NCBI GenBank assembly: GCA_947492995.1
Contig: CANLOU010000002.1
Location: forward strand, 682,001 to 746,000
Source of the DNA: an uncultured Litoreibacter sp.
Lineage (GTDB): Bacteria > Pseudomonadota > Alphaproteobacteria > Rhodobacterales > Rhodobacteraceae
Direction: 5' to 3'
Length of the DNA: 64,000 nucleotides
How positions within the stretch are numbered: position 1 is the stretch's first letter; each line of letters starts with the position of its first letter. Shown here piece by piece: positions 4,789 through 40,839 of this stretch. A model generated the notes under the pieces. That model was not told the origin of the DNA, made no database searches, and saw only the letters and a program-made list of their open reading frames with translations. The position numbers and the translations under genes were made by a program.

Positions 4789-4804
4789 CAAGGTAGGGAA
4801 GCAA

Positions 4805-13545: not shown

Positions 13546-13692
13546 ATGGCAACTTTTATGACTGCAATGCTGATGATGGCTGCCTTGGGCAGTCTTTTGG
13601 CGTTCGGTCACGTCTCTGCCGTGAACGCACATATCACTAGTAAAAAGCTTTCTGGGTCGGATGTGCAACGACCCGACACAGAAAGCCTGTAA
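13546..13692 (+). CDS. Small 48-aa protein with export signal upstream of the RTX gene
   Basis: Starts at 13546 with GAGGAA about 9 nt upstream; reads MATFMTAMLMMAALGSLLAF, then GHVSAVNAHITSKKLSG and DVQRPDTESL. The first 20-28 residues are a hydrophobic Met-rich helix ending in VSAVNA, which resembles a signal peptide or a single membrane anchor. The stop lies 10 nt before the RTX start, and its final codons contain the RTX gene's SD (AAGGAG). No family recognised. It may be a genuine small protein, or a translated leader that couples to the giant gene. Confidence 0.55.
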   Translation: MATFMTAMLMMAALGSLLAFGHVSAVNAHITSKKLSGSDVQRPDTESL

Positions 13693-13702
13693 GGAGAACA
13701 CC

Positions 13703-16700: not shown

Positions 16701-19700
16701 GCGACGTGACCATCAGTTATTCGATCACTGACGGAAACGGCGGCACGTCTTCCGCTGAGGTTGCCGTAACAGTGAATCCAGTCAACGACGACCCGGTCGC
16801 GGTGGACGACATCGAGACCACCGACGAAGACGTTGCGGTTGTTGTCGATTTGCTTGGCAATGACACCGACGTGGATGGCGATGATTTGACCATCGCCTCG
16901 GTCAGCGTTGATCCTGCTGAAGGCACTGTGGTCGACAATGGCGACGGTACCGTCACATTCACACCAGCGCCGAACTTCAACGGCCCAGTCACGATCACCT
17001 ACACTGTCTCCGACGGTAACGGTGGCACCGATGACGGCGAAGCCGTTGTCAATGTGGGCGCGGTCAACGACGCACCTATCGCGGTTGACGATACAGCTGA
17101 AACCGATGAGGACACCCCGGTCACCATCGACGTGCTGGACAATGACAGCGACCCGGATGGCGACGACATCTCCATCATTTCAGCAACCGTTCCGGCAGAC
17201 CAAGGGACTGTCGAGATCGTCGATAACGAGCTGCTCTTCACACCGGCACCTGATTTTGAGGGTGACGCGACCATCACTTACACCATCTCTGATGGCATGG
17301 GCCTGACGGACACTGGTGAAGTCGCCGTGACCGTGAACCCGGTTGATGACGCACCGGTCACTGTTGATGATCTGGCGGAAACTGATGAGGACACGCCTGT
17401 CACCATCGACCCATTGGCCAACGACAGCGATCCAGACGGTGATGAATTGTCAATCGCAGGCATCCCGGTTGCTGAAAACGGCACCGTGACGGTGAACCCA
17501 GACGGTACAATCGAGTACACGCCTGATCCTGACTTCAACGGCACCGACACTATCACCTATGTCGCAACGGACCCCGATGGGAACGAGACACCAGGCACGA
17601 TTATCGTGACTGTTGCTCCGATCAACGACGATCCGGTTGCTGTAGATGATGCGGCCACCACCGATGAGGACACAGCTGTCACCATCGATTTGATCGGCAA
17701 CGACACAGATGTGGACGGCGATCCGCTGACACTCGGCTCGGTCTCGGTCCCTGCGGACCAAGGCACCGTGGTCGACAATGGCGACGGCACCGTAACCTTC
17801 ACACCTGCGCCAGACTTCAACGGCGAGGCGACCATCACCTACACGGTCGAAGACGGCCAAGGTGGCTCTGATGAAGGTCAGGCGATTGTCACTGTCGACT
17901 CGGTCAATGATGGCCCGGACGCGGTGGATGACAGCGACACAACTGACGAGGATACACCAATCACCGTCGATCTACTGGCTAATGACAGCGATCCAGAAGG
18001 CGATGCGCTGACAGTCACCAACGCAACCGTACCTGCCGACCAAGGCACGCTGGTTGACAATGGCGACGGCACCGTGACCTTCACGCCTGCTGACAACTTC
18101 AACGGCGAAGCGACTATCAGCTACGAAATCTCCGATGGCAACGGCGGGACAGACACAGCTGAGCACACCATCACTGTCACTCCGGTCAACGATGATCCGG
18201 TTGCCAATGATGACGACGTGGTTGTGGACGAGGACGACAGCGTTGTTATCTCGCCTTTGGGCAATGACACGGATGTGGACGGCGACACGATCACCATCGA
18301 GAGCTTCACGCAGCCAGAAAACGGCACGCTGACGGACAATGGCGATGGTACGTTCACCTATGAGCCCGACGATGGCTACAACGGTCCGGACTCGTTCACC
18401 TATACTGTCTCTGACGGTAACGGTGGCACCGACACGGCTACCGTCAACATCACCGTCACACCAGTGAATGATGATGTGGTCGCCGAGGACGACAGCGAAA
18501 ACACAACGATCCTATCTCCTGTTGTGATCTCGGTGCTGGCCAATGACAGCGACCCGGATGGCGATGACCTGTCGGTTGACAGCTTCACTCAGCCTGCGGC
18601 AGGCGGCACGGTCACCGACAATGGTGACGGGACGCTGACCTTCACACCAGATGGGACTGTCGATGGCGAGGTGACGTTCGAATACACCGTCACTGACGGC
18701 AATGGCAGCTTCGACACTGCGACTGTGACGGTTCTGATCCGTGACGGTATCGTTGAAGGCACAGCGGGCGACGACCTGATCGAAGCCGGCACATATCTCG
18801 ACGATCCTGAGGGCGACGTGGTTGATGGTGGCGACGAGTTCCTGCCGGGCGAAGGCCCTGAGGATGACATCATCCTTGCTGGCGACGGCAACGACACTGT
18901 CAATGCAGGCCTCGGCGATGACGAAGTCTACGGCGAAGATGGCGACGACGTTCTGAACGGCGGCGCAGGTGACGACTACCTGTCCGGCGGCGAAGGCGAC
19001 GACATCATCTCTGGTGGCGACGGCAACGACACGCTTGATGCGGGTCAAGGCGCGGACCAATTGTTCGGCGAGGACGGCGATGACCTCCTGCTGGGAGGAC
19101 CGGGCACTGATCTGCTGGACGGTGGCACGGGTAACGACACCATCCTGGGCGGCAACAATGACGACACCATCATTGGTGGTCAGGGCGACGACGTCATCGA
19201 AGGCAACGACGGTAACGACGACATCCGCGGCAACCAAGGTGAAGACACCATCGACGGTGGATTGGGTGACGACACAATCAACGCTGGTAACGATAATGAT
19301 ACAGTCGACGGCGGCGAAGGTAATGACACCATCCAAGGTGGCGACGGCGACGACACGCTGATCGGTGGCTTGGGCAATGACGACATCCAAGGCAATGACG
19401 GTGACGATATCATCGAAGGTAACGAAGGCGACGACGTCCTGTGGGGCGGCGCTGGCAACGACACCATTGATGGCGGCGACGGCAATGACAATGTCATGGG
19501 CGGCTCCGGTGACGACGTGGTTGATCTGGGCGATGGTGACGACATCGCGCAAACCGGTTCTGGCGATGACACGGTCATCGGTGGTCTGGGCAACGACACC
19601 ATCGAGACCAATGACGGCAACGACACGGTTGAGGGTGGCGATGGTAACGATGTCATCAACACGTCCGGCCATGCACCGTTGCCTGATCTGGGTTACCCAG

Positions 19701-24556: not shown

Positions 24557-27500
24557 ATGACCAAGTTAATAGACGCGGTTCACCGCGTGGCCTTTGGCTG
24601 TATGTCCTTGCTTGCTGTCGGCTTTGCTGCGGGGCTGGGTTTGACTACCTCTGCGGCGCAGGCGACCACGTTTACCACCACGGTTCCGGGCACCACGATC
24701 ACCTTGCCGGAAGACTATCCGGAGGCCGGCGGCGTTGCGATCGTCATGGTGGGTATCAACGGCAACGTCTATTATCAGTTCTCGGACCCTGAAAACGCGT
24801 TTGTCGGGTTCAACAACCGCGCCAACCGGGACGAGTTGGAGGGCAACCCCTTCACCGTCAACGATCCGATTACGTTGAATTGCGGGTTTAGTAGCTGCCG
24901 GGACTATTTTGGCGGCGGTCTGGCGCGTGTCCATATTCGGTTCTCGGCCTATGATGGCGACACGCAGGTCGGCGGCTTTGACCAAAATGACATCACATTG
25001 CGCGTCAACGGCTTTGACGTAGGCAACTGGTCTGGGCGCACGACGGAGCGCACAAACACCAACGGGACCGTGTCACAGGGCTTTGTGAACGGGTTCGGGA
25101 ACAACACATTCAATACGGGCTGGTTCGATTCCACCAACCCCGCCTTGCTGAACAGCTTGCTGGACACCGGCACGACCACAACGCAGGTGTTCGACCGCGA
25201 CCCCAACGACAACTACTGGGACTTCCAGCGCGGCCCGCGGCTGAGCCGTGACGAGATCCGGACCGTTGCACCGGGCTACACCATCGAAAAAACCGCAAAC
25301 CCGCTGACCTATTCTGATGTCGACGACACGGTTCAATACACCTACCAGATCGCCAATATCGGATCGGTCTTCATCCGCAACCTCTCGGTTGAAGATGACA
25401 AGATCGACGAGGGGGCGAACCCTATCGTCTGTGACAAAACCACCATCGAGCCGCGCCCGTTTGGCGATGCGCGTGGGCCTGACACCGCGACATGTACCGT
25501 GACCTACACGGTCACGCAGGACGACATAGACAACGGCTCTGTCGTCAACACGGCGATCGGCGAAGGCGACCCTGACGAGGGGGTTTTGGGGGCCGTGTCA
25601 GACGACGCGATCATCACCGGGCCAGCCGCCGACCCAAGTCTGAATGTCGTAAAGACATCCGTGCTGGACGGTGGCGGACCGGGGTTCGGGGCGGCGGGGA
25701 CGACCGTGCCCTACGTCATCACCGCCACCAATGACGGCAACGTCACGTTAACAGACGTGGTGCTGACGGACGATTTGATCCCGTCGTTTTCATGCACCAT
25801 TCCCGAGCTGGAACCGGGCGAGAGCGACAGCTGCTCGGTTGACTACACCGTTTTGCAATCCGACGTGGACGCGTTTGCGGTCTCGGGCACCGAACTTGTC
25901 AACACAGGCCGCGGGCGGGCGACCGCGGCGCGCGGCCCCAACCCGACGGGTTTCGGACCGGGCGAATTTGACGAAGACCAAATCCCGGGCCAACCGGCGG
26001 CCCCGTCCTTCACGCTGGCCAAGACCGCCCTGACCGGAACCTACGCCGCCGTCAACGACACGTTGCAATACAATGTCGAGATCACCAACACGGGCAACGT
26101 CACCTTCCCGCAGGCCCCGACCGTGACCGACAGCCTTGGCGTCCCCGTCAACTGCCCGGCAGGCCCTGTGGCGCCCAACACGTCGATCACCTGTACCGTC
26201 AGCTATGACGTGTCGCAGGGCGACATCAATGACGGGCAGGTGGACAACACCGTGACGGCCGACATCACCGTGGGCGGCGTGGCCGCGCCGACCCAGACGG
26301 CAAGCGCAACCGTCACCGCCACCCGCACGACGGGGCTGAGTTTGGTCAAACAGTTGGCGGCGAGCTCGCCCACCAGCTTTGACGACATCAACCAGACGAT
26401 CAGCTACGAATATGTGCTGACCAACACCGGCAACGTCACCCTGGAGACCCCGAGCGTGACGGATGACAACGTCACCGTGGCCTGCGGGCCGACGGAGATT
26501 TTGCCGGACACCTCAATCACTTGTACCGCCACCGACAGCACCGAGCAGGAAGACCTGGACGCAGGCGGGCTGACCAACGAGGCGACAGCGCAGGCCATCA
26601 CCGCGGGTCTCGCCGGTGGCGACACGGTGACCTCCACCACGGAAACGCTGACCGTGCCAGCGGTGCTGGAACCCGCCCTGACGCTGTTGAAGGAAGGGCC
26701 AGCCACCCCGCCGGCCTTCACCCTGAACGAAGAGGTCATCTACACCTACACCGTGACCAACAGCGGCAATGTGGCATTGACCGGCAACATCACCGTCACC
26801 GACGACAAGATCGGCACCTTCGCATGTTTTGATGGCCCGCTGGCGCGGGGGGCGTCGGACAGCTGCACGGCCAGCTATTTCCTCGACGCAGATGACCTGG
26901 GGTCGGGCATTGTCACCAACACGGCGACCGCCACGGATGGCACTGTGACGTCCCCGTCCAGCAGCGTCACGATCTCGAACGCGGCGACGCCCGAGGTCAC
27001 CATTGCCAAGGCGGCGTTGACCAGCCCGATTGGCGCGACGGATACCTCTGTTACCTATGAGTTCACCGTGACCAACACGGGGACCGCGACGCTGGTCGAG
27101 GCGTTTTCGCCGATCACCATCAACGATGCCAAGCTGCCGGGCGGGGCCCTTGCCTGCCCGATGCCGCCGCCGTTCGTTTTGATCCCAACCGCATCCTATA
27201 CCTGCCAGGGTACCTATACCGGCGTCTCGCAAGAAGAGCGTGATGCTGGCGAGGTGGTCAATGTGGCGACCGCATCCTTCCCCTTCAGCTCGGGCGGGGT
27301 GACGCAGACGATCACGTCGGACAGCGCGACCGCCACGACGCCGATCACCGAGGACCTGAATTTCACCTTCACAAAGGACCAAGATGGCGACGACACGTTC
27401 CTCGCGGTCAATGAGGTGCTGGACTACACATTCACGGTGACCAACACGGGCAACGTCACGATTGCGTCTATCAGCATCACCGACACCAAAATCGCCAATG

Positions 27501-30500
27501 TTGTCTGCCCGATTGCTGATCTGGCTCCGGGCGACAGCGACACCTGTAGCGCGCAGTACACGGTCATGCAGGCAGACGTGGACGCGGGCACGATTGTCAA
27601 CAACGCGACCGCAACTGGGGCGAGCGATCAGGGATCGCAATTTACGCCGCCTGTGGCCACGGACACCTCGACGCTTGATCCGGCGGGCGACATCAGCAGT
27701 CTGGTTGTCACCAAGTCCCCCAATGTCGCGGCCTTCGCTGCGGCGGGCGAGATCATCACCTACACAATCGACGTTTTCAATGACGGCACCAAGACGCTGA
27801 CGAACACGACGGTCACCGACATTCTGGACCCAACCTATAGCTGCACGATCCCAACGATTGCGCCGATGACGAATTTCGACCTGTGCAGCTTCACCTATGA
27901 GGTGCAGCAATCCGACATTGATGCCGGTCAGATCGACAACATGGCCGCCGCCGCAAATGCGGCCCTGCCGACGCCGTCCGAAAGCCCGATTGTGACCGTA
28001 CCGGGACCGGCTCGCGAAGCAGAGCTGGAAATCGAGAAAGTTGCCCGCAGCGGCTACACCAATGTGGGCGACGACATTGTCTTCGACATCCGCGTCCGCA
28101 ACACCGGCAACGTCACCATGACGGGCGTCAACGTGGAAGACGCATCGGTCTTTTCGCCAGCGCAGACCTGTGCGGTCGGTGACATTGCGCCCGGCTTTGA
28201 CCAGATTGTGTGCTCGCTGACATATACCGTGGACCAGGACGATCTGGACCGTGGTTTTGTGGACAATACCGCGACAGTTGCAGGCGTTGGGGCGGATGGC
28301 ACCTCGATCAATGAAAGCGCCGACGAGCGGTCAGACGGGCCTGCCGCCAACCCGATGATTTCGGTCGACAAGGTTGCCGCACAGCCGAGTTACACCAGCG
28401 CGACCGACAGCTTCGATTTCACCTTCACCGTGACCAATACCGGCAATGTGACCCTGACCAATATCGAGCTGGTCGACACAGATGCCGACGGCGAAACCTT
28501 CCGCTGTTTCGTGGACAACCTGCCGCCACTGCCTGCCGCGAACAGCACGGCCGTGTGTACAGGCGGCGCGGCGATGGCGTTCACCAAGACGTTTGACCAA
28601 GCCGATGTTGACGCGGGCAGTTACACCAACACCGCCGTTGTGACGGGCGAAAGCCTTGTGGGCGGCGTGGGCGTGACAGATGACGACCCCGAGACCGTGA
28701 CCGGTCCGGTGCAGACCCTGACCCTTGATCTGGACAAGCGCGAAACCTTTGGCGCGACCTTTGCCGAGGTGGGCGAGATCATCACCTACGAATATGACGT
28801 CACCAACACCTCGAACATCACGGTGACGGGCGCAATCACGATCAGCGACAGCGTGACGTCGCGCAGCCCGGCGGTCGACGTGCCGGTAAGCTGCCCCGCG
28901 ATCCCCGCGGGCGGGCTTGCCCCGGGCGATGTGCTGACCTGCGAGGCCAGCTATGTCGTGACGCAGGAAGATCTGGACAACAACGCGGTAACCAACTCGG
29001 CCACGGCGTCGGTGTCGCAACGGATAAATGGCGGGGCGACCCTGACGGTCAGCACCTCGGCCCCCGACAGCGAAACTGTCAATGCCGCGCAAGCGCCCGA
29101 ATTCGAGCTGAGCAAAGCCATCAAGGCGGGGTCCGCGACCACCTACACCAATGTCGGCGACGAGGTGACGTTTGAATACACCGTGACCAACACCGGCAAC
29201 ATCACCCTGACCCAGCCCATCACTGTTACAGACGACCAGATTACGGCCACCACCACCTGCGGTCCATTGCCCATCGCCCCGGGCGACAGCGTGACCTGCG
29301 AGCTGGTTTGGACGGCCGAGCAGCAAGACATCAATGACGGGCAGATCACCAATATCGCCACGGCGTCGAGCCCCGAAGTGCCGCTGGACGCCAGCGACGA
29401 CTTTACCACGGCGGCCCTGCAGCAGCCGGGGCTTGCGATGGTCAAGACCAACACCGGCGGCAGCTTCGTGTTCACGCCGCCCCCCGGGCCGTTTGACGAC
29501 CTGACCTATGACTACGTCATCACCAACACGGGCAACACCAGCATCGACACCGCGTTGATCTCCGTGAATGACAGCCGCATTTCCACCGTCACATGCCCAG
29601 CGGGCGGCGGCATTCTGGAACCCCTGCGCATTGACCCGACCGCGCAATATGTGTGTACGGCGACCTACCGGGTGACCTTCAACGACAGCCAATTGGGCGA
29701 GGTCACCAACCTTGCAACCGCCACCGATGGCACGACCACCAGCCCGCAAGTGGCGGAAACCGTCCCCTCGGATGCGGTGCCATCCCTCGACATTGTCAAA
29801 AGCGTCATCAGCGGCGCGGATTTCGACGAAGTGGGCGACGAGGTCGTCTACGAATTTGCGGTGACCAACACCACCAATGGCGGCGGCGCGACCTTCACCG
29901 AACCGGTCAACATCGTGGATGACAAGATCGGCGCGGAATTTGAGTGCTTTGCACCGACCCCGGCCAACCCGTTCAACCCGACAGAGACCGAAACCTGCCA
30001 GGCCAGCTACTTCATCACGCAAGCTGATCTGGACGCGGGCGAGGTGGTGAATGAAGCCACCGCCAACACCATCTTTGCGCCGTTGAGCGACAACCCCGTG
30101 ACCGTTGTGTCCGCCCCGGACACCGCAACCATTGGCGGCATCGAAGACCCCGAGCTGACGGTCGTCAAATCGGTGACGGGCGGCGACGTAGACCCAGCGG
30201 TCGGCGACACCATCCAATACACGATTGTGACGCAGAACACCGGTAACCAGACCATCCGCCAGGTGATGGTGTCGGACCCGAAAATCCCGGTGCTGACCTG
30301 TACCGTGGATGATGGGGCAGGGGCCCAGGTGCCGGCACCGGCCAATGTGGTGCTGCTGCCCGACGAGATTTTGACCTGCGTGGGCGATTACGAAGTGACG
30401 CAAGTGGATCTTGACGCCCAGCAGGTGGTCAACATTGCCTCCGCCATGGGCAACGACCCTGACGGGCAAAACGTCCCGGCCAGCGATGAAAACACCTTTG

Positions 30501-33500
30501 AGGCGGTCGCCCCTCCGGCGCCGGTTCTGACGGTCACCAAACGTGTGGACCCCGTGCCTTTGTCGGGTGACCCGGCCTATGCCGGCGTCGATCAAGTTGT
30601 GAATTTTATCATCGAAGTGACTAATAACGGCAATGTCACCGTGGACAGCATCTCGGTGGTCGACACGGCCACTACCGTCAATGCACCGACGCCGGCCACC
30701 TGCGATGTGGGGACGTTGGCCCCGGGCGAGACGTTTGACAGCTGCATGTTCTCGGTCGTGGTCACGCAGGACGAGATTGATGACGGATCGTTCGACAACA
30801 CGGGCACAGCCACCGGAACGCCGCGCCCGGGCGGCTCGGTCGAGGGCGACGTGACCATCACCGTGGTCGGCCCCGAAGCGGAGCCCGCCTTTGCGATGTC
30901 GAAAACCGCGGATGTCAGCGAATTCAACGCGGTCGGTGATGAAATCACCTACACCTATATCGTCGGCAACGCGGGCAACGTGACGCTGTTTGCGCCGCCG
31001 CTGCTGGAAGATGACAAGATCGGCACCGTGACATGCCCGGCGTTCGGGCCATCCGGTCTGGCCCCGCTGGACTTTGTGGAATGTACGGCGGTCTACACCG
31101 TCACGCAGGACAACGTGGACGCGGGATTTGTCACCAACGTGGCCACCGTGCGAAGCACCGAAGTCACCACTCCCGAAGAAGCGACAGAGACCGTGGAGGC
31201 CGTGCGCGCGCCGTCGATGACGCTGCTCAAGACGCCTTCGATCACGGTAGATGCCGCCGAGGGCGATGTCATCGAATACACCTACACCGTCACAAACACT
31301 GGCAATACCCGTCTGTTCGACGTGGCCGTGACCGACGCGCAGACCAGCGCAGACGGCACCAACGCGCTGACCATTGCGGGCGACCAGCTGGTGACGGATA
31401 CAGGCGAGCTAAACAATTCGACCGATGGCGGCGCGAATGGCAGCTGGGACGTTCTGGCCCCCGGTGACGTGGTTGAATTCACCGCCAGCTACAGTGTCAC
31501 CCAAGCGGATGTGGATGCGGGCAATCCGCTGACCAATGATGCGGGCGTCAGCGCGACCGGGCCACCGGGCACCGAGGTCGACCCCGAAACGGCCAGCGTC
31601 TCTGTTCCGGTCGAAGAGGCCACTCCGCTGTTGGAGGCGGTCAAACTGATCGCCAATTCCACGGGCTCCGAGGCCGGAGACACCGTCACATTCTCCATCA
31701 CGGTGACCAACACGGGCAATGTGACGCTTGATGCGCCGGAACTGACCGACACGCTGACACGCACCGATGGGACGCCCCTGAGCGTCACCACCGGGCCGGA
31801 CTGGGACACTGTCGATACCGGGCTTGCGGGCCAGCTGGACGTTGACGAGACATGGACCTACGAGGCGACGTACATCCTTGAGCAGGCCGATATTGATGCC
31901 GGTGGTGTGGCCAACCAAATTCTTGCCGAAAGCGCCGGGCCAGACGGAACACCGACGCAGGATCAATCCGGCAATGGCCTGCCAGGTGGCGATGACGCCC
32001 CGACGGTGTTCTCGGTCCCTGCGGCACCTGCGATATCGGGCGAGAAAACCATCACCTCGACCACCGTTGCGGTCGGCGAGTTGGTCACTTTCAGGATTGT
32101 TGTGACCAATGACGGCAACGTCACCTTGACCGGCGTGAATGCCGATGACGACACGCTGACACGGTCTGACCCCGCAAACACCCCGCTGGCTTTGAACTCT
32201 GGGCCAAGTTTCCAGTCGTCAAGCGAAGGCTCGCCGTCGGGCACGCTGTTACCGCAGGAATCTGCCACCTATGTGGCCAGCTACCGTTTGGTGCAGGAAG
32301 ACATTGATGCAGGCGGCATCTCGAACACCGCCACCGTTGTTGGCCAGCCGCCGCTTGGCGCGCCGATCAGCGATGTGACCGATAATGGGGATGATGGCGA
32401 CGGCAACACCGAGGATGACCCGACAGAGCTGGTGATCGAGGCGGACCCGGTCTTGTCCATTGCCAAAACGCTGGCCGCTGGCGAGCCGGGCAATTTCGAC
32501 ACCTTGAACCAAGAAATCTTCTTTGACTTCACCATCACCAACGAGGGCAACGTCACGTTGGACGGGCCCTTTACCGTCGCCGATGCGTTGATCGAAGCGC
32601 AAGGAAATGCGGTGACCTGTCCGGCCGGGCCGTTGGCCCCGATGGGCGAGCTGGTTTGCACGGGGTCCTACTTTGTTGAGCAAGATGACCTTGACGAGGG
32701 CTCGCTGACCAATGCGGCGACCGGCTCTGACGAAGGGACTGACACGCAAAGCCCCGAGGACACGATCACGGTTCCGGCGTTGCAGAACCCATCCATGGCT
32801 GTGGTCAAGGAAGCCGAAGATGTTCCGCCTGCCAATTTCGATGTCGGGCTGGAAGTTGAATACACCTACACAGTCACCAATGACGGCAACACCACGCTGA
32901 CCGACGAGATCACGATTGACGACAACCTGATCGACACGGTCGTGTGCGAAGACCTGCCGGCCGGTGGCCTGATCCCGGGCGAAAGCATCACATGTCTTGG
33001 CACCTATGAGGTGACAGCCGATGATGTGACGCTGTTTACGGTGACCAACCTTGCCTCTTCGACAAGCGGCCCGACCACCAGCCCGCTGGTGTCGGAAACC
33101 ATCCCCAATGATGCCGAGCCGTCGATCAGCATCGTGAAGACGGCTGAGGCAGGGGCGAGCTTCTCGGAAGTTGACGACCCGATCACCTATACGTTCGAGG
33201 TGACAAATGACGGCACACAGGCGTTCGGCAACGACATTTTGATCTTCGACGACAAGCTTGATGGTGGCGAAACCGGGCTGGCCTGCCCATTGCCTGACGG
33301 CGACGACACGCTGAGCGCGGGCCAGACGGTTATTTGCGAATTCACCTATCTGGTCACCCAGGAGGATCTGGACGCGGGCGAGGTGGTCAACGAGGCCTTC
33401 GCGCAGACCACATTTGGCGATCCTGACGACCCGACGCCGGTGACCTCGGCCCCAACGACCGAAACGGTTGATGCGGACACGATGCCCGCGATGACTTTGA

Positions 33501-36500
33501 CCAAAGTGTCGAACCCGAACCCCGCCGGACCGGTGGACAGCACTGTGACCTACACGCTGGTGGCCACAAACACGGGCAACCAAACCCTGAACACGGTGGT
33601 GGTGTCGGACCCTCGCCTGCCGGATCTGGTCTGCGAGGCGGCGACGCTGGGACGCGGCGAAGAACTGCGTTGCGTCGAAGACTACACCGTGACCCAGGCC
33701 GATATTGATGCGGGCGGCATTTCAAACACCGCTGGCGTCACGGGCCAAAACCCGCAAGGGGACCCGGTCGGTGGACCCGATGATCCGATCACGGCGACGG
33801 AAGAAACAGATGTCCCGGACGCGGCACCTGCCGTCACAGTCGAAAAGACCGCAAGCCCGTCCACATTGGGCCCCGTTGGCAGCTTTGTGACCTACAGCTT
33901 CCGCATCGAAAACACCGGTACAACCACGCTGGCCTCGATCCTTGTCGATGATGTGCTGGACACCGGCCCCGCCTGCGAAATCACTTCGCTGGCACCTTTG
34001 GGCGTGGATGATTTCACCTGCTCCTTCATGCTGGAGGTCACGCAGGCCATGGTCGACGCGGGTGAGGTGGAAAACACCGTCACCGTGACCGCAACGGACG
34101 TTTTGGGCAATGATGCCGATGCCAATGACACCGTTGTCACGGACGGGCCCGACAGGGTTCCGGCGCTGGAGGCCACCAAGATCGCCACAACCACGGGGCA
34201 GGCCGTTGGCGAAACCGTCACCTATTTCCTGAGCGTCGAGAACACCGGCAACGTCACGCTGCAATTCCCGGACATCACCGACACGATGAGACGCAATAAC
34301 GGCTCGCCCACCGCGTTGGACGCCCCGTTTGCCTTGACCTCGGGCGATTTGGATGAGGACGGCTTGCTGGATGTGGACGAGACATGGGTGTTCACCGCGC
34401 AACATGAAATAACGCAAAGCGACGTCAATGCAGGCGGGTTCTCCAACGTGGCCGTTGTGACCGCGGATGGGCCACCCGGCACGGACCCGGAAGAGGACAC
34501 CGCAGATGACGGCGACGACAGCGACGGCAATTCCGACGACGACCCGACCGAATTCAACATCACCGCAGAGCCGCAGATTACAACGGTCAAGGCCGTCACC
34601 GGCACCCCGGGCAGCGCGGCAGGTGAATTTGTCAGCTGGTCAATCACAGCGCGCAACACCGGCAATGTGGACATCACGGATGTCGACATCGCCGACACGC
34701 TGACGCGCGCAGATGGAACCAACATCACGCCGGTGCCTGCGCCGGTGAACACCTCGGGCACGACCGACCTGCCTGCTGGCGCGGAAATCGTCTGGACGCT
34801 GACCTATGAGCTGACCCAGGACGATATTGACGCGGGCGGCCTGTCCAACTCGGCCACCGTCACGGGCGAGGCGCCAAATGGCGACACGGTCGAAGACGTG
34901 TCCTCAGATGACGACCCGTTTGATGGCAACAATGACGACGATCCGACAGAGCTGGTGATCCCGGCGGCCCCGGGGCTTGATGTTGTCAAGGCATTGACCA
35001 CCCCGGGCGCGCGCGAGGGCGACACGATTGCCTTTGACATTACCGTCGCCAACACCGGCAACTTGACCCTGACGGGCGTGAGCGTTGCAGACAACCTGTC
35101 GCGTATCGGCGGCGGTGCCCTGACGCCTGACAGCGTGACCTTCCAACCCGTTCCGGGCGGCTCGCCGGAAGGCACGATCGAAGTGGGTGAGAGCGCCACT
35201 TACGAGGTACTTTACACCTTGGTCTTGGCGGATGTGGATGCCGGGGGCGTCTCGAACTCCGCCGTTGCAACGGGGACGACACCGCTGGGCGCGACGCTTT
35301 CGGACACATCGCGTGACGACGACCCTGCTGACGGCAACGACATTGATGACCCCACCCTTGCGGTCATTGCGCCTGCGCCGGAAAACACGCTGACCAAAGT
35401 GTCGAGCGAGATCACTGTGCTTTTCCCGACGGTCTATCAGGTGACCTTCACCATCACCGCGACCAACACCGGCAATATCACCCAAACCGGCTACCAGATC
35501 ACCGACGACCTGTCTGACTTTGAAGGCAGTGCGACAGTGCTGCGTGACGCCCCTTTCGGGATTGCGGTGCGGACCTCTGGCTTTACGGATGGCTCTGTCA
35601 ATGCAGGATTTGACGGGGCAACCGATCCGGACACGCTGGCGGGCAACCCGACACTGGCGCCGGGCGAAAGCGGCACGGTCGAAATCGACGTGGTCTTTCA
35701 GGTCGATCCCGGCACGTCTGTGGGGGAGAACACCGCGAATGTGACCTCTGCGGAGCTGGCGACGCCGACGCCGTCCAATTCGGCAATCGTGCCGATTGTG
35801 GACACCGATGGTGACGGGTCGCCTGACGGGTTCGAAGGATGCACACCGCTGAGCGAGAATGATCGCGATGGCGACGGGATTTGTGACGCAGAAGACTTTG
35901 ACCCCACGGGCTATTTCTACTGCGAGGATGACGGGCGGATATTGCCCGGCGGCTCGATCTCGGTGACCGGGCCTGCGGGCACGCAGACCGGCGTCGGGTT
36001 CTCCAACAACATTCGCATTGTTCAGGACGGTGCGCTGGGGCAGTTCTCGTTCTTCGTGACACGACCGGGCACCTACACGCTGAACGCGACCTATCCGCCA
36101 TTGGGCGTGCAAAGCACGACCCGGCTGACATCGGGCCTTGTGGATGCAACGACGCTGTTGCCTGCCAACCCGGCGTCGCTTGGCGGCTCGGAAGTGGGCA
36201 ATTCAAACGTGCTGTCCGACTTCTCGGCGGGGGGGAACACGTTCTACACCTCCTTCACTTTTGAGGCCGGAGACCCGCTGATTATCAACAACAACCTGCC
36301 GCTGGAAAACTGTCAGGGCATCCCTGATATTCTGGCGACCAAGCAGGCGGATCGCGACAGCGCGGTCTTTGGCGAGACCGTCAATTTCACGCTGAGCTTC
36401 ACCAACAACACGTCAAACACGCTGAACAATGTCAGCTATGTCGATCTGTTGCCTGCGGGCATGTTGTACACGCCCGGCACCGGCGCAGTTGACGGCGTAT

Positions 36501-37297
36501 TGATCGAGCCTGCGGTCGCAGGCTTGCGATTGTCATGGGACGGCCAGACGATTGCGCCCTCTCAGACGGTCAATGTGACGCTCAGCGCGCGCGTGGTCGC
36601 CAATGGCAGCTACGGTGAATTGATTAACCGCGCCTTCATGACGGATGCGGCGGGCAACCAGTTGTCCAACACCGCGACCGCCGTTGTCAGGATCGAGCCG
36701 GAACATGTGTTCGATTGCGCCGACATCATCGGCAAAGTCTATGATGACCGTAACCAGAACGGGTATCAGGACCAAGGGGAACCCGGCCTGCCGGGGGTGC
36801 GTTTGGCGACCGTCAAAGGCTACCTGATTACCACGGATGAATATGGCCGCTACCACGTGCCCTGCGCGGAGCTGCCCAGCGATATCGGGTCCAACTTCTC
36901 GCTGAAGCTGGATACGCGGACCTTGCCGACGGGCTACCGCGTAACAACCGAAAACCCACGGGTCATTCGGGTCACGGCAGGTAAGTTTGCCAAGCTGAAC
37001 TTTGGCGCGGCGCTGTCAAATGTTGTGGATGTGGATCTGACCGCCAAAGCCTTCAACGCCGATGGGACACCCGCGGCGGGGCTTGTACGCGGCGTCGATC
37101 AATTGATTGACCGGATCAAGGTGACGCCGTCGGTGCTGCGGCTCAGCTACATCATGCGGGACGGCGACACCAAACTTGCAAGGGCGCGGCTGAAAGCCGT
37201 CGAACAACTGATCCGCGAGAGATGGCGCGGAGGCGGCAGGTACAAGCTCAATATCGAACGCACCATCAAACGCGCAGTGAAAGGAGCGGACCAATGA
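24557..37297 (+). CDS. Giant exported protein with 29 DUF7507/DUF11-type Ig-like repeats
   Basis: 4246 aa. A signal peptide (about residues 1-36, ending TTSAAQA) is followed by an unknown beta-rich domain (37-239, with a C-x4-C). Then come 29 repeats of about 121 residues (240-3748), a TSP3-like Ca2+ segment (DTDGDGSPDGFEG ... DRDGDGICDAEDFDP, from 3749), a beta domain, one canonical DUF11 domain (about 3922-4052), an SdrD-B-like domain (about 4055-4155, IGKVYDDRNQNGYQDQGEPG) and a basic Arg/Lys-rich tail. Every repeat keeps Lys, Asp and Asn positions that suggest intramolecular isopeptide bonds. It overlaps the outer-membrane barrel gene by 4 nt. Likely a surface fibre or adhesin. The SD before the start is weak (GAGGG 12 nt away). 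Confidence 0.93.
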   Translation: MTKLIDAVHRVAFGCMSLLAVGFAAGLGLTTSAAQATTFTTTVPGTTITLPEDYPEAGGVAIVMVGINGNVYYQFSDPENAFVGFNNRANRDELEGNPFTVNDPITLNCGFSSCRDYFGGGLARVHIRFSAYDGDTQVGGFDQNDITLRVNGFDVGNWSGRTTERTNTNGTVSQGFVNGFGNNTFNTGWFDSTNPALLNSLLDTGTTTTQVFDRDPNDNYWDFQRGPRLSRDEIRTVAPGYTIEKTANPLTYSDVDDTVQYTYQIANIGSVFIRNLSVEDDKIDEGANPIVCDKTTIEPRPFGDARGPDTATCTVTYTVTQDDIDNGSVVNTAIGEGDPDEGVLGAVSDDAIITGPAADPSLNVVKTSVLDGGGPGFGAAGTTVPYVITATNDGNVTLTDVVLTDDLIPSFSCTIPELEPGESDSCSVDYTVLQSDVDAFAVSGTELVNTGRGRATAARGPNPTGFGPGEFDEDQIPGQPAAPSFTLAKTALTGTYAAVNDTLQYNVEITNTGNVTFPQAPTVTDSLGVPVNCPAGPVAPNTSITCTVSYDVSQGDINDGQVDNTVTADITVGGVAAPTQTASATVTATRTTGLSLVKQLAASSPTSFDDINQTISYEYVLTNTGNVTLETPSVTDDNVTVACGPTEILPDTSITCTATDSTEQEDLDAGGLTNEATAQAITAGLAGGDTVTSTTETLTVPAVLEPALTLLKEGPATPPAFTLNEEVIYTYTVTNSGNVALTGNITVTDDKIGTFACFDGPLARGASDSCTASYFLDADDLGSGIVTNTATATDGTVTSPSSSVTISNAATPEVTIAKAALTSPIGATDTSVTYEFTVTNTGTATLVEAFSPITINDAKLPGGALACPMPPPFVLIPTASYTCQGTYTGVSQEERDAGEVVNVATASFPFSSGGVTQTITSDSATATTPITEDLNFTFTKDQDGDDTFLAVNEVLDYTFTVTNTGNVTIASISITDTKIANVVCPIADLAPGDSDTCSAQYTVMQADVDAGTIVNNATATGASDQGSQFTPPVATDTSTLDPAGDISSLVVTKSPNVAAFAAAGEIITYTIDVFNDGTKTLTNTTVTDILDPTYSCTIPTIAPMTNFDLCSFTYEVQQSDIDAGQIDNMAAAANAALPTPSESPIVTVPGPAREAELEIEKVARSGYTNVGDDIVFDIRVRNTGNVTMTGVNVEDASVFSPAQTCAVGDIAPGFDQIVCSLTYTVDQDDLDRGFVDNTATVAGVGADGTSINESADERSDGPAANPMISVDKVAAQPSYTSATDSFDFTFTVTNTGNVTLTNIELVDTDADGETFRCFVDNLPPLPAANSTAVCTGGAAMAFTKTFDQADVDAGSYTNTAVVTGESLVGGVGVTDDDPETVTGPVQTLTLDLDKRETFGATFAEVGEIITYEYDVTNTSNITVTGAITISDSVTSRSPAVDVPVSCPAIPAGGLAPGDVLTCEASYVVTQEDLDNNAVTNSATASVSQRINGGATLTVSTSAPDSETVNAAQAPEFELSKAIKAGSATTYTNVGDEVTFEYTVTNTGNITLTQPITVTDDQITATTTCGPLPIAPGDSVTCELVWTAEQQDINDGQITNIATASSPEVPLDASDDFTTAALQQPGLAMVKTNTGGSFVFTPPPGPFDDLTYDYVITNTGNTSIDTALISVNDSRISTVTCPAGGGILEPLRIDPTAQYVCTATYRVTFNDSQLGEVTNLATATDGTTTSPQVAETVPSDAVPSLDIVKSVISGADFDEVGDEVVYEFAVTNTTNGGGATFTEPVNIVDDKIGAEFECFAPTPANPFNPTETETCQASYFITQADLDAGEVVNEATANTIFAPLSDNPVTVVSAPDTATIGGIEDPELTVVKSVTGGDVDPAVGDTIQYTIVTQNTGNQTIRQVMVSDPKIPVLTCTVDDGAGAQVPAPANVVLLPDEILTCVGDYEVTQVDLDAQQVVNIASAMGNDPDGQNVPASDENTFEAVAPPAPVLTVTKRVDPVPLSGDPAYAGVDQVVNFIIEVTNNGNVTVDSISVVDTATTVNAPTPATCDVGTLAPGETFDSCMFSVVVTQDEIDDGSFDNTGTATGTPRPGGSVEGDVTITVVGPEAEPAFAMSKTADVSEFNAVGDEITYTYIVGNAGNVTLFAPPLLEDDKIGTVTCPAFGPSGLAPLDFVECTAVYTVTQDNVDAGFVTNVATVRSTEVTTPEEATETVEAVRAPSMTLLKTPSITVDAAEGDVIEYTYTVTNTGNTRLFDVAVTDAQTSADGTNALTIAGDQLVTDTGELNNSTDGGANGSWDVLAPGDVVEFTASYSVTQADVDAGNPLTNDAGVSATGPPGTEVDPETASVSVPVEEATPLLEAVKLIANSTGSEAGDTVTFSITVTNTGNVTLDAPELTDTLTRTDGTPLSVTTGPDWDTVDTGLAGQLDVDETWTYEATYILEQADIDAGGVANQILAESAGPDGTPTQDQSGNGLPGGDDAPTVFSVPAAPAISGEKTITSTTVAVGELVTFRIVVTNDGNVTLTGVNADDDTLTRSDPANTPLALNSGPSFQSSSEGSPSGTLLPQESATYVASYRLVQEDIDAGGISNTATVVGQPPLGAPISDVTDNGDDGDGNTEDDPTELVIEADPVLSIAKTLAAGEPGNFDTLNQEIFFDFTITNEGNVTLDGPFTVADALIEAQGNAVTCPAGPLAPMGELVCTGSYFVEQDDLDEGSLTNAATGSDEGTDTQSPEDTITVPALQNPSMAVVKEAEDVPPANFDVGLEVEYTYTVTNDGNTTLTDEITIDDNLIDTVVCEDLPAGGLIPGESITCLGTYEVTADDVTLFTVTNLASSTSGPTTSPLVSETIPNDAEPSISIVKTAEAGASFSEVDDPITYTFEVTNDGTQAFGNDILIFDDKLDGGETGLACPLPDGDDTLSAGQTVICEFTYLVTQEDLDAGEVVNEAFAQTTFGDPDDPTPVTSAPTTETVDADTMPAMTLTKVSNPNPAGPVDSTVTYTLVATNTGNQTLNTVVVSDPRLPDLVCEAATLGRGEELRCVEDYTVTQADIDAGGISNTAGVTGQNPQGDPVGGPDDPITATEETDVPDAAPAVTVEKTASPSTLGPVGSFVTYSFRIENTGTTTLASILVDDVLDTGPACEITSLAPLGVDDFTCSFMLEVTQAMVDAGEVENTVTVTATDVLGNDADANDTVVTDGPDRVPALEATKIATTTGQAVGETVTYFLSVENTGNVTLQFPDITDTMRRNNGSPTALDAPFALTSGDLDEDGLLDVDETWVFTAQHEITQSDVNAGGFSNVAVVTADGPPGTDPEEDTADDGDDSDGNSDDDPTEFNITAEPQITTVKAVTGTPGSAAGEFVSWSITARNTGNVDITDVDIADTLTRADGTNITPVPAPVNTSGTTDLPAGAEIVWTLTYELTQDDIDAGGLSNSATVTGEAPNGDTVEDVSSDDDPFDGNNDDDPTELVIPAAPGLDVVKALTTPGAREGDTIAFDITVANTGNLTLTGVSVADNLSRIGGGALTPDSVTFQPVPGGSPEGTIEVGESATYEVLYTLVLADVDAGGVSNSAVATGTTPLGATLSDTSRDDDPADGNDIDDPTLAVIAPAPENTLTKVSSEITVLFPTVYQVTFTITATNTGNITQTGYQITDDLSDFEGSATVLRDAPFGIAVRTSGFTDGSVNAGFDGATDPDTLAGNPTLAPGESGTVEIDVVFQVDPGTSVGENTANVTSAELATPTPSNSAIVPIVDTDGDGSPDGFEGCTPLSENDRDGDGICDAEDFDPTGYFYCEDDGRILPGGSISVTGPAGTQTGVGFSNNIRIVQDGALGQFSFFVTRPGTYTLNATYPPLGVQSTTRLTSGLVDATTLLPANPASLGGSEVGNSNVLSDFSAGGNTFYTSFTFEAGDPLIINNNLPLENCQGIPDILATKQADRDSAVFGETVNFTLSFTNNTSNTLNNVSYVDLLPAGMLYTPGTGAVDGVLIEPAVAGLRLSWDGQTIAPSQTVNVTLSARVVANGSYGELINRAFMTDAAGNQLSNTATAVVRIEPEHVFDCADIIGKVYDDRNQNGYQDQGEPGLPGVRLATVKGYLITTDEYGRYHVPCAELPSDIGSNFSLKLDTRTLPTGYRVTTENPRVIRVTAGKFAKLNFGAALSNVVDVDLTAKAFNADGTPAAGLVRGVDQLIDRIKVTPSVLRLSYIMRDGDTKLARARLKAVEQLIRERWRGGGRYKLNIERTIKRAVKGADQ
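25273..35800 (+). repeat. Array of 29 DUF7507-type repeats
   Basis: Units of about 330-420 nt. Each opens with a strand ending in Lys (IEKTA, VVKSV), then (Y/F)xxxVTNTGNVT, a central (V/I)(T/S/E)D, usually a Cys pair flanking LAPG, then VTQxDxDAG and (V/L)xNxATA. Units 18-20 and 26-29 form a second subtype: no Cys pair, an inserted DTLTRxDGT segment, and in most an acidic DDPTEL tail. Units 6, 14 and 23 resemble each other, as do 7, 15 and 24, suggesting a super-repeat of 8-9 units. Confidence 0.9.
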
Positions 37298-40200
37298 AGA
37301 ACCCAAATCTGATCCGCCCCGTCCTTGCCAGCAGCTCTTTGCTTGCCTTGACGCTGCCCGCAATGGGCCAGAGCTTTGATGTAGATTGCACCTTGCAGGG
37401 CGGCGTGCTGCCCGCCGGGTGTGACCTGCCAAATGATGACACTGTGGTGATCGTCGATGTCGGTGCAAATACCGAAATCGACAATGACACCGTCTTGTTG
37501 GGCGACGAAGGGTTCTTCATTTCCATTGATGGGGAAGCTGTCGCGGGCGACAAGCGTGTCGAGGATCTGAGCCGCAAGACCGATATTGCGCTGTCCGAGG
37601 CGGATGTTCAGGTCAAATTTGACGGGTTGGGCGCAGAACCTGCGCTGAACCTTGCCATCACCGGCACCGCCCGCGAATACAAACCCGGGGACCGGATCAC
37701 CTTCCGCTCGAAAACCAACTACCCCGCCTATATCACGCGCGGCGAAGTGCGCATCGTGGATTATTCGGGGCGCTCCGGCCCTCGGGTGGTTGCTGTGGTT
37801 CCGGTCGAGCCCAACGGAACAGTCACCGTTGTCATGCCTGAGGGGGACAATCTGGGCGCCATTCACCGCGTCTATGACGCGCGCGGGCGGTTTGACGAGA
37901 CGGAAAATCTGGGCCTAAATCAACGCGATGATCGTGGCGAATTGGCTGCCAACGAAGAGGGCGCAGATCGCACTGCGGTCAGCCGCATTCCAGTGTCGGG
38001 CGGCGCGGTCACGGTCTATGGCACCGGTGTGCGCCCGGGCGCGACGGTGACCACATTGGGCGAGACGCTGACGCCAGCGCCGGATGGCAGCTTTGTGGTG
38101 CAGCGAATTTTGCCCGCGGGTGACGCGGATGTGGATGTCCGTATCTCCGGCGCAGGCGAAGACGTCTATCTGCAGCGCGGGGTCAATATCCCCAATTCCG
38201 AATGGTTTGGTGTGGCGACCGTCGATCTGACCTTTGGATACCGTGCGGATGGCGGCAAGAATGCCGCTGGCGGGGCGTTTGAGAAGTATTACGATCGAGG
38301 CCGTCTGGCCTTCTACACAAAGGGCAAAACCAAAGGCGGTTGGGAGATCACGGCAAGCGCCGACACCGGCGAGGACGAGCTGTCGGAAATTTTCCGCAAT
38401 CTCGACAGGAAGGACCCGCGCCATTTGTTGCTGCGGCTCGACAGCGACAAGGCCTATCCGGTTTACGGCGACGACAGCACGATTGTCGAAGACGCGCCGA
38501 CCTCTGGGAAATTCTACTTCCGTGCGGAGAAGGACGGGAACTTCCTTCAATGGGGCAACTACAAAGGTAACATCACCGGGTCCGAGTTCCTGCGCAACGA
38601 GCGCACGCTTTATGGCTTTCAGGGCCATTACGCCACCCAGGCGCAAACGGAAAAGGGCGAGGCGCGCGCCTCGCTTGATGTCTATGCCGCGCAGCCCGAC
38701 AACCTGCCGGGGCGCGATGTGTTTCGCGGCACTGGCGGCTCGGTCTATTTCCTGCAGCGTCAGGACCTGTCCATTGGGTCGGAAACCATCAGCGTCGAGA
38801 TACGTGACCCCGACACCAACCGCGTGATTGATCGCCAAACGCTGGTATATGGCCGCGATTATGACATCAATTACCTGCAGGGCGTGGTCACGCTGAACCG
38901 GCCTTTGACGGGGGCTGTTGGCGGGGGCACGGTTGTGACCGACCCGCTGGGCGAAAACACGGTGCTGCTGACGGTGAACTACGAATTCACGCCGACTGCA
39001 GGCACCGTGGACGGCTATGCCTATGGTGGCCGGGCGCAGGTTTGGGCCACAGACAACCTGCGGTTGGGGGTCACCGGTTTGGTGGAGCAGACCGACATCG
39101 CGGATCAAAAAGCCTATGGCGCGGATCTGCGATATGAGCTGACCGACAACACGTTTCTGGAGTTCGAATATGCCAGAACTGAAGGGCCGGGATTTGGCCA
39201 ATCATTTTCGTCTGATGGCGGCCTGATTGTTACCAATACCAACGCCGTCGGCGGCACGGGGGAGGCCTATCTGGCCCGTGGCCAATTTGAATTTGGCGAC
39301 CTCAAGCCCGGCCTCAACGGGCGCGCGAGCTTTTATGCGGAACGGCGGAGCGCGGGCTTCTCCACGCTGGATTACCAAACCTCGACTGACGAGCGGCTTT
39401 ACGGTTTGGCGGTTGAATTCGAGCCAAGCGAGCGGCTGAGCTGGCGGCTGTATTACGACGATTTTGCGGATGACGCGGGCAAGACCGTGCGCGAAGGCGG
39501 GGCCGAGCTGACCTACAAAATGTCAGACCGCATCATATGGGATTTCGGGATCGAGCATCTCGACAAGAACATTCCCGGCGATGCCGACGAGACCGGACGC
39601 CGGACCGACATAGCCGTCCGCCTGACATCCATCGAAAGCGAACGGCTGGAATGGTACGTTTTTGCACAAGGCACCGTTGAGCACAGCGGCGGGCTGACCA
39701 AGAACAACCGGGTCGGGGCAGGGATCAAATACCAGTTTGCACAGAACTGGACCTTTGAGGGCGAGATTTCTGACGGATCGACGGGCGTCGGTGCGCTTGC
39801 CTTGTTCTCCTACGAGAATGACCAAAACACCTCGGCCTATTTCGGCTACACGCTCGATCCGCGCCGCGACTTCAACGGCGTGACCCTGGCGGGCAAGGAT
39901 CGCGGACAATTCATTGCCGGTGGCCGCCGCAAGCTGGGCCGCGATGTCGAGGTTTACGCAGAAAACACCTATGATCTGTTCGGGGTACACCGGTCCCTGA
40001 CGTCAACCTATGGCGTTGACTACGCGCGGAGTGAATATCTGAGCTATTCCATATCCGCCGAGATCGGCAAGATTGATGACCCCGCCGGGGATTTTGACCG
40101 AACAGCATTGTCGTTCGGCGTCAGCTATGAAGATCAGCAGGGGCTGTCGGCCCGTGCGCGGCTGGAATACCGCAACGATCGCGGCATCATTTCTGGCACC

Positions 40201-40839
40201 CGGCGCGACGGCGACACCATCGCCGCCTCCGCAACGGTCCGCTACAAAATTGATGAAGAGCAACGGCTGCTCTTCAGCTTCGACGCCAGCTATACCGACA
40301 CGGACGGATCGTCGATCCCGGATGGGCGCTACGCCGAAATCTCGCTGGGCTACGCGTATCGGCCCATCGAAAATGACCGCCTGAACGTTTTGGCGAAATA
40401 CACCTACCTGCATGACCTGTATGGCCAAGAGGTAGATGGAACCAACACCCCAGGCGCGCGCCAGAAAAGCCATGTGCTATCGGTTGACGCATCCTATGAT
40501 CTTGACCGTCAATGGACCGTCGGCGGCAAGGTCGGGCTGCGGTATTCGGAAAGCTCGCCAAGTGCAGGCGTTGCCTTCCAAAGCAACGATGCCTGGCTGG
40601 TGGTCGCAAATGCGCGGTACCACGTCACCCATAAATGGGACGTCTTGCTTGAGGGGCGGATCTTGAAGGCAGAGCAGGCCGGAACCACCGAGTACGGGCT
40701 ACTGGCGGCGGCGTATCGCCACTTTGGCAATAACTACAAGGTCGGTGTGGGATATAATTTCGGCAAGTTCTCGGATGACCTGACCGATCTGACATTTGAC
40801 GACCGGGGCTTGTTCATCAACTTGATCGCCAAGTTTTAG
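37294..40839 (+). CDS. Large outer-membrane beta-barrel protein, partner of the giant repeat protein
   Basis: 1181 aa from the ATG at 37294, overlapping the previous stop (ATGA) and preceded by AAAGGAGCG. Signal peptide 1 to about 25 (ends LPAMGQ). The N-terminal 310 residues are periplasm-type beta domains (ITFRSKTNYPAYITRGEV; VTVYGTGVRPGATVTTLGE). From about residue 315 to the end, alternating amphipathic strands with aromatic girdles dominate (RLAFYTKGKTKGGWEITASA; WRLYYDDFADDAG). The chain ends LFINLIAKF, with the terminal Phe of BAM-assembled barrels. A GRDYDINYLQGVVTLNRPL motif sits near 519-541. No catalytic motif seen. Coupled expression suggests it anchors, exports or displays the giant protein. 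Family not firmly recognised. Confidence 0.85.
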   Translation: MKNPNLIRPVLASSSLLALTLPAMGQSFDVDCTLQGGVLPAGCDLPNDDTVVIVDVGANTEIDNDTVLLGDEGFFISIDGEAVAGDKRVEDLSRKTDIALSEADVQVKFDGLGAEPALNLAITGTAREYKPGDRITFRSKTNYPAYITRGEVRIVDYSGRSGPRVVAVVPVEPNGTVTVVMPEGDNLGAIHRVYDARGRFDETENLGLNQRDDRGELAANEEGADRTAVSRIPVSGGAVTVYGTGVRPGATVTTLGETLTPAPDGSFVVQRILPAGDADVDVRISGAGEDVYLQRGVNIPNSEWFGVATVDLTFGYRADGGKNAAGGAFEKYYDRGRLAFYTKGKTKGGWEITASADTGEDELSEIFRNLDRKDPRHLLLRLDSDKAYPVYGDDSTIVEDAPTSGKFYFRAEKDGNFLQWGNYKGNITGSEFLRNERTLYGFQGHYATQAQTEKGEARASLDVYAAQPDNLPGRDVFRGTGGSVYFLQRQDLSIGSETISVEIRDPDTNRVIDRQTLVYGRDYDINYLQGVVTLNRPLTGAVGGGTVVTDPLGENTVLLTVNYEFTPTAGTVDGYAYGGRAQVWATDNLRLGVTGLVEQTDIADQKAYGADLRYELTDNTFLEFEYARTEGPGFGQSFSSDGGLIVTNTNAVGGTGEAYLARGQFEFGDLKPGLNGRASFYAERRSAGFSTLDYQTSTDERLYGLAVEFEPSERLSWRLYYDDFADDAGKTVREGGAELTYKMSDRIIWDFGIEHLDKNIPGDADETGRRTDIAVRLTSIESERLEWYVFAQGTVEHSGGLTKNNRVGAGIKYQFAQNWTFEGEISDGSTGVGALALFSYENDQNTSAYFGYTLDPRRDFNGVTLAGKDRGQFIAGGRRKLGRDVEVYAENTYDLFGVHRSLTSTYGVDYARSEYLSYSISAEIGKIDDPAGDFDRTALSFGVSYEDQQGLSARARLEYRNDRGIISGTRRDGDTIAASATVRYKIDEEQRLLFSFDASYTDTDGSSIPDGRYAEISLGYAYRPIENDRLNVLAKYTYLHDLYGQEVDGTNTPGARQKSHVLSVDASYDLDRQWTVGGKVGLRYSESSPSAGVAFQSNDAWLVVANARYHVTHKWDVLLEGRILKAEQAGTTEYGLLAAAYRHFGNNYKVGVGYNFGKFSDDLTDLTFDDRGLFINLIAKF

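Follow-up and report, generated by a model that had tools for sequence, protein, structure and literature searches.

Two adjacent genes of an uncultured Litoreibacter sp. appear to specify a single cell-surface device: a giant fibre together with its own outer-membrane barrel, which would anchor the fibre and probably export it as well. We put the probability of this reading at about 0.68. The genes lie in a 64,000-nucleotide stretch of DNA, all of which was analysed and which is referred to here as the window; the host is a marine bacterium, and the two-gene set has stayed together in many proteobacteria. A dedicated anchor-or-exporter pair had been proposed in the preliminary description from the position of the two genes, and this proposal now draws support from 80 loci, 398 genomes, natural fusions and a swapped gene order.

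Gene layout

The open reading frames and translations agree with the giant of 4246 residues, the barrel protein of 1181 residues and the ATGA overlap between them that were described at the outset; the signal peptides reported on both proteins were likewise found, judged by eye. The features are as follows.

24557-37297, + strand: giant fibre protein gene, 4246 aa (ORF list, translation, Pfam)
24557-24664, + strand: signal peptide of the giant, residues ~1-36 (judged by eye)
24665-25288, + strand: N-terminal tip domain, residues ~37-244 (sequence comparison of giants)
25289-35770, + strand: stalk of 29 DUF7507/CLIPPER_2 Ig-like repeats, residues 245-3738 (Pfam, own repeat model)
35771-36325, + strand: non-repeat stretch, residues 3739-3923, with Asp-rich segment DTDGDGSPDG...DRDGDGICD (sequence)
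36326-36682, + strand: last DUF11 (CLIPPER) domain, residues 3924-4042
36704-37009, + strand: SdrD_B-like domain, putative docking domain, residues 4050-4151 (Pfam, conservation, structure model)
37010-37294, + strand: OmpA-like tail, residues 4152-4246, predicted beta-alpha-beta-alpha-beta (model, profile comparisons)
37294-37297, + strand: ATGA overlap of the giant's stop codon (37295-37297) with the barrel start (translations)
37294-40839, + strand: outer-membrane barrel protein gene, 1181 aa (ORF, translation, structure model)
37294-37368, + strand: barrel-protein signal peptide, residues ~1-25 (judged by eye)
37516-38193, + strand: N-terminal beta-rich region, residues 75-300 (model; no Pfam match in the window protein)
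38194-40836, + strand: predicted barrel, residues 301-1181, with C-terminal Phe (structure model, strand count)

Read from its first start codon, the barrel ORF covers 37222-40839 (+ strand) and 1205 aa; the length of 1181 aa is counted from the ATG at 37294. The pair stands alone in the window: it is preceded by an HD-domain gene and followed by one for an AlkZ-like glycosylase, and both neighbours lie on the opposite strand. A start-to-stop spacing of -4 is seen in 35 of 74 loci, though in each case the start codon closest to where the giant stops was taken, a choice that favours -4, and this figure has therefore been set aside as evidence. Promoter and terminator scans gave nothing of use, and a scan of viral contigs found no relative.

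Stalk and tip of the giant protein

Pfam recognizes 29 DUF7507 stretches in the giant (1653.6 bits against a cut-off of 27; DUF11 was also matched), as many as the Ig-like repeats first counted, while our own repeat model brings the total to 30, with 29 repeats within residues 245-3738 and one at 3928-4032, in the last DUF11 domain. A complete Lys/Asp/Asn isopeptide triad is present in 29 of these 30, the last DUF11 included; taken singly, the Asp is found in 30/30 and the Asn in 29/30, and all 30 repeats have a Lys where one is expected, the Lys having been sought within a 20-residue stretch and lying 15-17 residues before model column 18 in 24/30. Two fixed columns are both Cys in 22 of the 30 repeats. 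The stalk beads are predicted from their sequences to be able to lock themselves through an intramolecular Lys-Asn isopeptide bond. A tandem repeat finder detected no array at the DNA level, because the repeats have diverged. The Asp-rich segment that follows the stalk has what we take to be the look of thrombospondin type 3 calcium motifs.

The tip domain of the window giant recurs in six of the 54 further giants that were compared (58-72% identity), these six being 4019-4348 residues long; in an alignment of four giants, the window's tip shares 66-72% identity with those of the other three. No credible match to it was found in Pfam or by PDB sequence search. A different tip, consisting of DUF6923 and Big_9, is carried by the giant of locus L152.

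The conserved base of the giant

The giant was initially thought to have no obvious anchor and to end in a basic tail. The first of these statements was not supported in detail: the giant has a dedicated end, made up of a conserved SdrD_B-like domain and an OmpA-like tail. The second stands as to charge (19 K+R vs 11 D+E over residues 4150-4246) and falls as to form, for the tail is the end of a conserved module, modelled with a mean pLDDT of 93.4, rather than a free extension. The SdrD_B-like domain is the most conserved part measured, 60 relatives averaging 75% identity to the window. The window's own SdrD_B score, 28.8 bits, is under the Pfam cut-off of 29.7; the family is matched (E <= 10) in 18 of 24 modules, with L156, L157 and L162 exceeding the cut-off. 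Against PDB sequences the module gave weak matches only, the best being an SdrD chain (E 0.18). In the last 971 residues of a Vibrio giant, Pfam found no SdrD_B match, and the domain was discerned there by eye only.

For the tail, comparison with OmpA by hhalign gave 40.7% over 57 columns locally and 7.2% in global mode; tail and OmpA models land on the same residues in L028, L163 and L164, with weak E-values, and OmpA had no Pfam match among the 24 modules. (Ten of the 30 OmpA loci contained stops, and 5 of the remaining 20 were excluded because frame or strand did not agree; the VIA-align rows cover residues 1-233, with the tail falling outside.) The topology predicted for the tail agrees with the alpha/beta fold of OmpA. 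A fibre without any conserved base was also considered, and was rejected in view of the conserved C-terminal module.

The cut point between the two genes shifts from one side of the OmpA domain to the other: in Croceibacterium (L028) this domain closes gene 1, and in Eleftheria (L026) it opens gene 2. Intact OmpA domains are found at the junction in several relatives. OmpA domains bind peptidoglycan, and such junctions would also suit a periplasmic giant tying the outer membrane to the cell wall, with the barrel as no more than its membrane end. At about 4 nm for each Ig bead, however, thirty beads would extend for ~120 nm, far beyond the periplasm, and GHTD, of the peptidoglycan-binding residues GHTD...RA of OmpA domains, is absent from the window tail; we consider a periplasmic tether very improbable.

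The barrel protein

The second protein, described from the start as a large barrel ending in Phe (...INLIAKF), has borne out that description: one Pfam family, the generic barrel family OMP_b-brl, matches over its cut-off (residues 1002-1156, 33.8 bits), and the structure model has a mean pLDDT of 80.5, with stretches of low pLDDT, and a pTM of 0.72. In this model 43 strands of at least 7 residues are predicted from residue 301, 34 of them from residue 555 on. Its profile matched no chain among PDB sequences at E <= 10. Barrel relatives occur in 588 of 593 genome-collection pattern matches, among the matches listed, and generic barrel families match parts of relatives (23 Pfam families are listed for 25 barrel relatives).

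Several plasmid records label barrel relatives 'TonB-dependent receptor', and such labels, along with the generic barrel matches and the tie in Z between SprA and porins seen in the structural comparison below, might suggest an uptake system in which a very large porin or receptor barrel is served by the fibre as a long ligand catcher. TonB-dependent receptor barrels have 22 strands, many fewer than the ~34-43 predicted here, and no plug or TonB-receptor family was matched by Pfam in the window protein (E <= 1) or is among the families listed for 25 relatives, so that identity as a TonB receptor, a closed form of which had been named as a result that would refute the pair, was rejected. The isolation of the pair between its two opposite-strand neighbours also speaks against uptake, which we think improbable.

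Gene order and co-occurrence

Gene order was compared in 80 genome loci holding the barrel, among the matches listed (L001-L020, short copies of other loci, were left out, and alignment A1 excludes L042 and also L048, in which the barrel is broken into two ORFs). An ORF with the C-terminal module lies directly upstream of the barrel in 75 of these, namely 74 plus L115 once a longer start is allowed. Two loci, both labelled Roseicyclus, have the giant directly downstream, the swapped order being seen in full for L152 and in part for the other; in the remaining three the contig starts within the barrel or right at its edge. The partner therefore adjoins the barrel in every one of the 80 loci where the neighbour is visible (77/80). 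By eye, no second conserved gene was seen in the pair loci whose annotation was inspected.

The same pairing appears when whole genomes are counted, though the family, locus and phylum sets partly consist of the same records, so these counts are not independent. Among 149 genomes of the family, the barrel is found in 21, the module in 20 and both in 19. The two genomes with the barrel only are G021, where it meets a contig edge, and G115, where it is a 273-residue remnant; the one with the module only is G070, a weak match (E 4e-5). Twelve of 21 genomes of the genus have both, eight have neither and one, 57% complete, has a barrel fragment alone. Across the phylum (398 genomes, with no more than 2 and 6 candidates scored for each in the searches), the barrel is matched in 61 and the module in 51, all 51 being among the 61; the hypergeometric value of 1e-54 for this co-occurrence is only a guide, since genomes share ancestry. 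Ten of the 61 have the barrel without a module match: four of these are fragments or weak (G369, G334, G340 and G398), and the other six, which belong to family f38, are clear matches to the barrel of the distant type.

Repeats of this kind occurring commonly without the barrel would have weighed against the pair. DUF7507 is found in 28 of the 149 family genomes, nine of them without the barrel and with 1-6 repeat matches each, but 19 of the 20 genomes with the module do have the barrel. Few repeats may also accompany a barrel (one each in G060 and G072, none in G115 and G146), so low repeat counts alone do not separate the genomes with a barrel from those without, and the C-terminal module separates them better. 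One locus, L160, has the module without a stalk and without a barrel beside it. The pairing of giant and barrel is well supported.

Natural fusions and variable fibre length

A stronger argument for the link comes from relatives in which the two proteins form one chain. L151 is a single ORF of 2079 residues that holds repeats, the module (727-948) and the barrel (951-2079), and L155 a single chain running DUF11-SdrD_B-OmpA-barrel. One-ORF forms, judged by contigs and open frames of equal length, occur in 28 of the 61 barrel genomes of the phylum set, and in most of these 28 the module match spans only the DUF11-SdrD_B part. A quick tree was built from 42 barrels, of which 8 bear the label fused (L029 from ORF length and annotation); it requires no fewer than three switches between the fused and split forms. 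Together with the swapped gene order, the fusions give evidence for the link that goes beyond mere position.

Module and barrel distances are also correlated over 61 loci (r 0.83, shared species history included; 0 of 2000 permutations reached as high a value), from alignments A3, made of the window barrel and 61 of the 74 paired ones, and A4, made of the window module and 60 others. Beside this constant module the stalk is highly variable: 55 giants range from 641 to 4348 aa and from 1 to 33 repeats, in a set that includes at least three duplicate pairs (L032/L102, L040/L105 and L041/L123) and in which sequencing errors may account for some of the short or odd starts. A Sulfitobacter plasmid giant is annotated at 18,588 bases. 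A constant base with variable tip and reach is what would be expected of an adhesin whose base must fit a barrel.

Relationship to known systems

DUF7507 is now CLIPPER_2, an Ig-like domain with a predicted self-locking Lys-Asn isopeptide bond (PMC12617251), so neither the stalk domain nor its cross-link is new. The fibrillar adhesins built of CLIPPER and CLIPPER_2 (DUF11 and DUF7507) that are described there resemble the window giant in their tandem repeats, Lys/Asp/Asn residues, frequent disulfides and adhesive tip, and an Acinetobacter example has an OmpA-like anchoring domain; the window fibre differs in having a barrel gene of its own and an SdrD_B-like domain. The terms 'barrel' and 'outer membrane' each gave 0 hits in the main text of that paper, and no description of the barrel family or of the fibre/barrel pair was found in the open-licence literature.

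In working principle the nearest system is TraA/TraB of Myxococcus xanthus, likened here by gene layout and description: as described in PMC3325183 and PMC12045341, traA and traB overlap by four bases and encode a stiff stalk and an outer-membrane barrel, the OmpA domain serving the cell wall. TraA differs in its MYXO-CTERM end and in being likely lipidated, and TraB in its size of about 540 residues and the C-terminal position of its OmpA domain (PMC3325183, PMC12045341). The likeness raises the thought that the window pair is a contact device for cell-cell recognition or membrane exchange instead of simple adhesion; the giant has no NCBIfam match to a MYXO-CTERM tag, there is no sign of polymorphic recognition, and we give this idea little credence.

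Fused relatives resemble autotransporters (T5aSS) in running passenger first and barrel last, and the split forms resemble two-partner secretion (T5bSS) in having a passenger gene and a barrel gene; unlike T5aSS, passenger and barrel are two genes in the window, one-chain forms being those of relatives. Neither window protein has a Pfam match to autotransporter, POTRA, ShlB or haemagglutinin-activity domains, and POTRA and ShlB are also missing from the Pfam families listed for 25 barrel relatives, in agreement with the earlier statement that no POTRA was seen; YadA_anchor is weakly matched in 4 of these 25 (best E 4.6e-5). Type 5 barrels have 12-16 strands, far fewer than are predicted for the window barrel.

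The fusions also bear on the most serious rival, in which the barrel only holds the base of the fibre and the outer membrane is crossed by another route. The OmpA-like tail and the intact OmpA domains of relatives suggest an anchoring base, as does the Acinetobacter adhesin (PMC12617251), and in TraAB the stalk TraA bears its own sorting tag while TraB is the barrel (PMC12045341). Anchoring alone sits less well with stalk and barrel in one chain, barrel last, in the classical autotransporter order, or with the lack of a second conserved gene in the loci inspected by eye, and we judge it rather unlikely.

Two other large barrels were compared by structure. SprA, the T9SS translocon (PMC10994853), is a 36-strand single-chain barrel; its comparison with the window barrel gave an rmsd of 13.0 and 11% identity, and it was tied in Z with small porins; its sequence domain was not matched by Pfam at E <= 1, nor any PDB chain by profile at E <= 10, and no T9SS sorting domain was matched on the giant (Pfam, NCBIfam). 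The top Foldseek match, 8agd_A (E 7.3e-9), is the Deinococcus SlpA / S-layer deinoxanthin-binding complex, likewise a large outer-membrane barrel protein, though a trimeric S-layer protein with a TM-score of about 0.2 and 11% identity to the window barrel. We know of no fibre partner of Deinococcus SlpA.

Proposed mechanism and implications

In the reading that we prefer, a fibre with its own barrel, both proteins would most likely reach the periplasm via Sec, the SdrD_B module would dock on the barrel, and the barrel would keep the fibre base at the outer membrane with the stalk outward. Docking and anchoring are suggested by conservation and fusion, and anchoring by the barrel is likely. Most likely the barrel would also pass the stalk out, like an autotransporter cut in two genes: the fused order suggests to us that the barrel exports the stalk, although export and its direction are suggested less strongly than anchoring, and no known export signature was seen in the pair. 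Its pore would have room for bulky Ig beads, which could explain the size of the barrel.

A bolder proposal, possible but tentative, is that of a new class of outer-membrane secretion, a split autotransporter in which a SprA-sized single-chain barrel would export Ig beads when these are already locked by isopeptide and disulfide bonds and then be plugged by the fibre's own SdrD_B base. If this were true, exporter, plug and anchor would be one complex.

The family to which the barrel belongs is widespread, and one of the largest barrels formed by a single chain may be among its members. PMC12617251 describes isopeptide-locked stalks in Gram-negative bacteria, and no exporter of such stalks was noted there. 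Now that a constant docking-type domain, a barrel to match and natural fusions are known from a fixed set of two genes, the exit and retention of such fibres become directly testable.

Repeat proteins of the window

The giant 4246-aa fibre protein carries an Asp-rich segment (DTDGDGSPDG...DRDGDGICD, window 35771-35910), which we take to resemble thrombospondin type 3 (TSP3) calcium motifs. According to PMC12045341, TSP3 repeats are also present in TraB, the barrel partner of the stalk protein TraA in Myxococcus xanthus. Elsewhere, the window encodes another giant, apparently a distinct surface protein of the RTX type:

13661-21025, +, second giant protein, 2454 aa; 11 stretches are of the cadherin/Big_9 type and 24 of the RTX calcium-binding type, and a Hint_2 domain lies close to its end

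Copies, solitary parts and plasmid-borne versions of the pair

Second copies of the giant-barrel pair were found in three genomes of the window's genus (G540:C3, G542:C3 and G550:C12); their barrels show 57-60% identity to that of the window, and their giants are shorter or cut by the contig end, with open frames of 772-1498 aa. Parts of the pair also stand alone:

L160 (G054:C62), 4983-5720, SdrD_B-tail module, 245 aa, with a signal-peptide-like start
L161 (G115:C18), 4494-5315, barrel C-terminal remnant, 273 aa

The L160 module lacks the stalk, and no barrel was found adjoining it at that locus; an ORF judged by eye to resemble a transposase lies nearby. The L161 remnant is likely a decayed copy.

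A distant version lies on a cyanobacterial plasmid:

L030, 5323-11576, 541-aa ORF (DUF11/SdrD-like by eye) and 1543-aa barrel protein, overlapping by four bases

Among the 23 plasmid records with barrel matches, 20 have at least 80% of the barrel covered; two of the 23 are typed as conjugative and two as mobilizable, and the pair may therefore be transferred between species.
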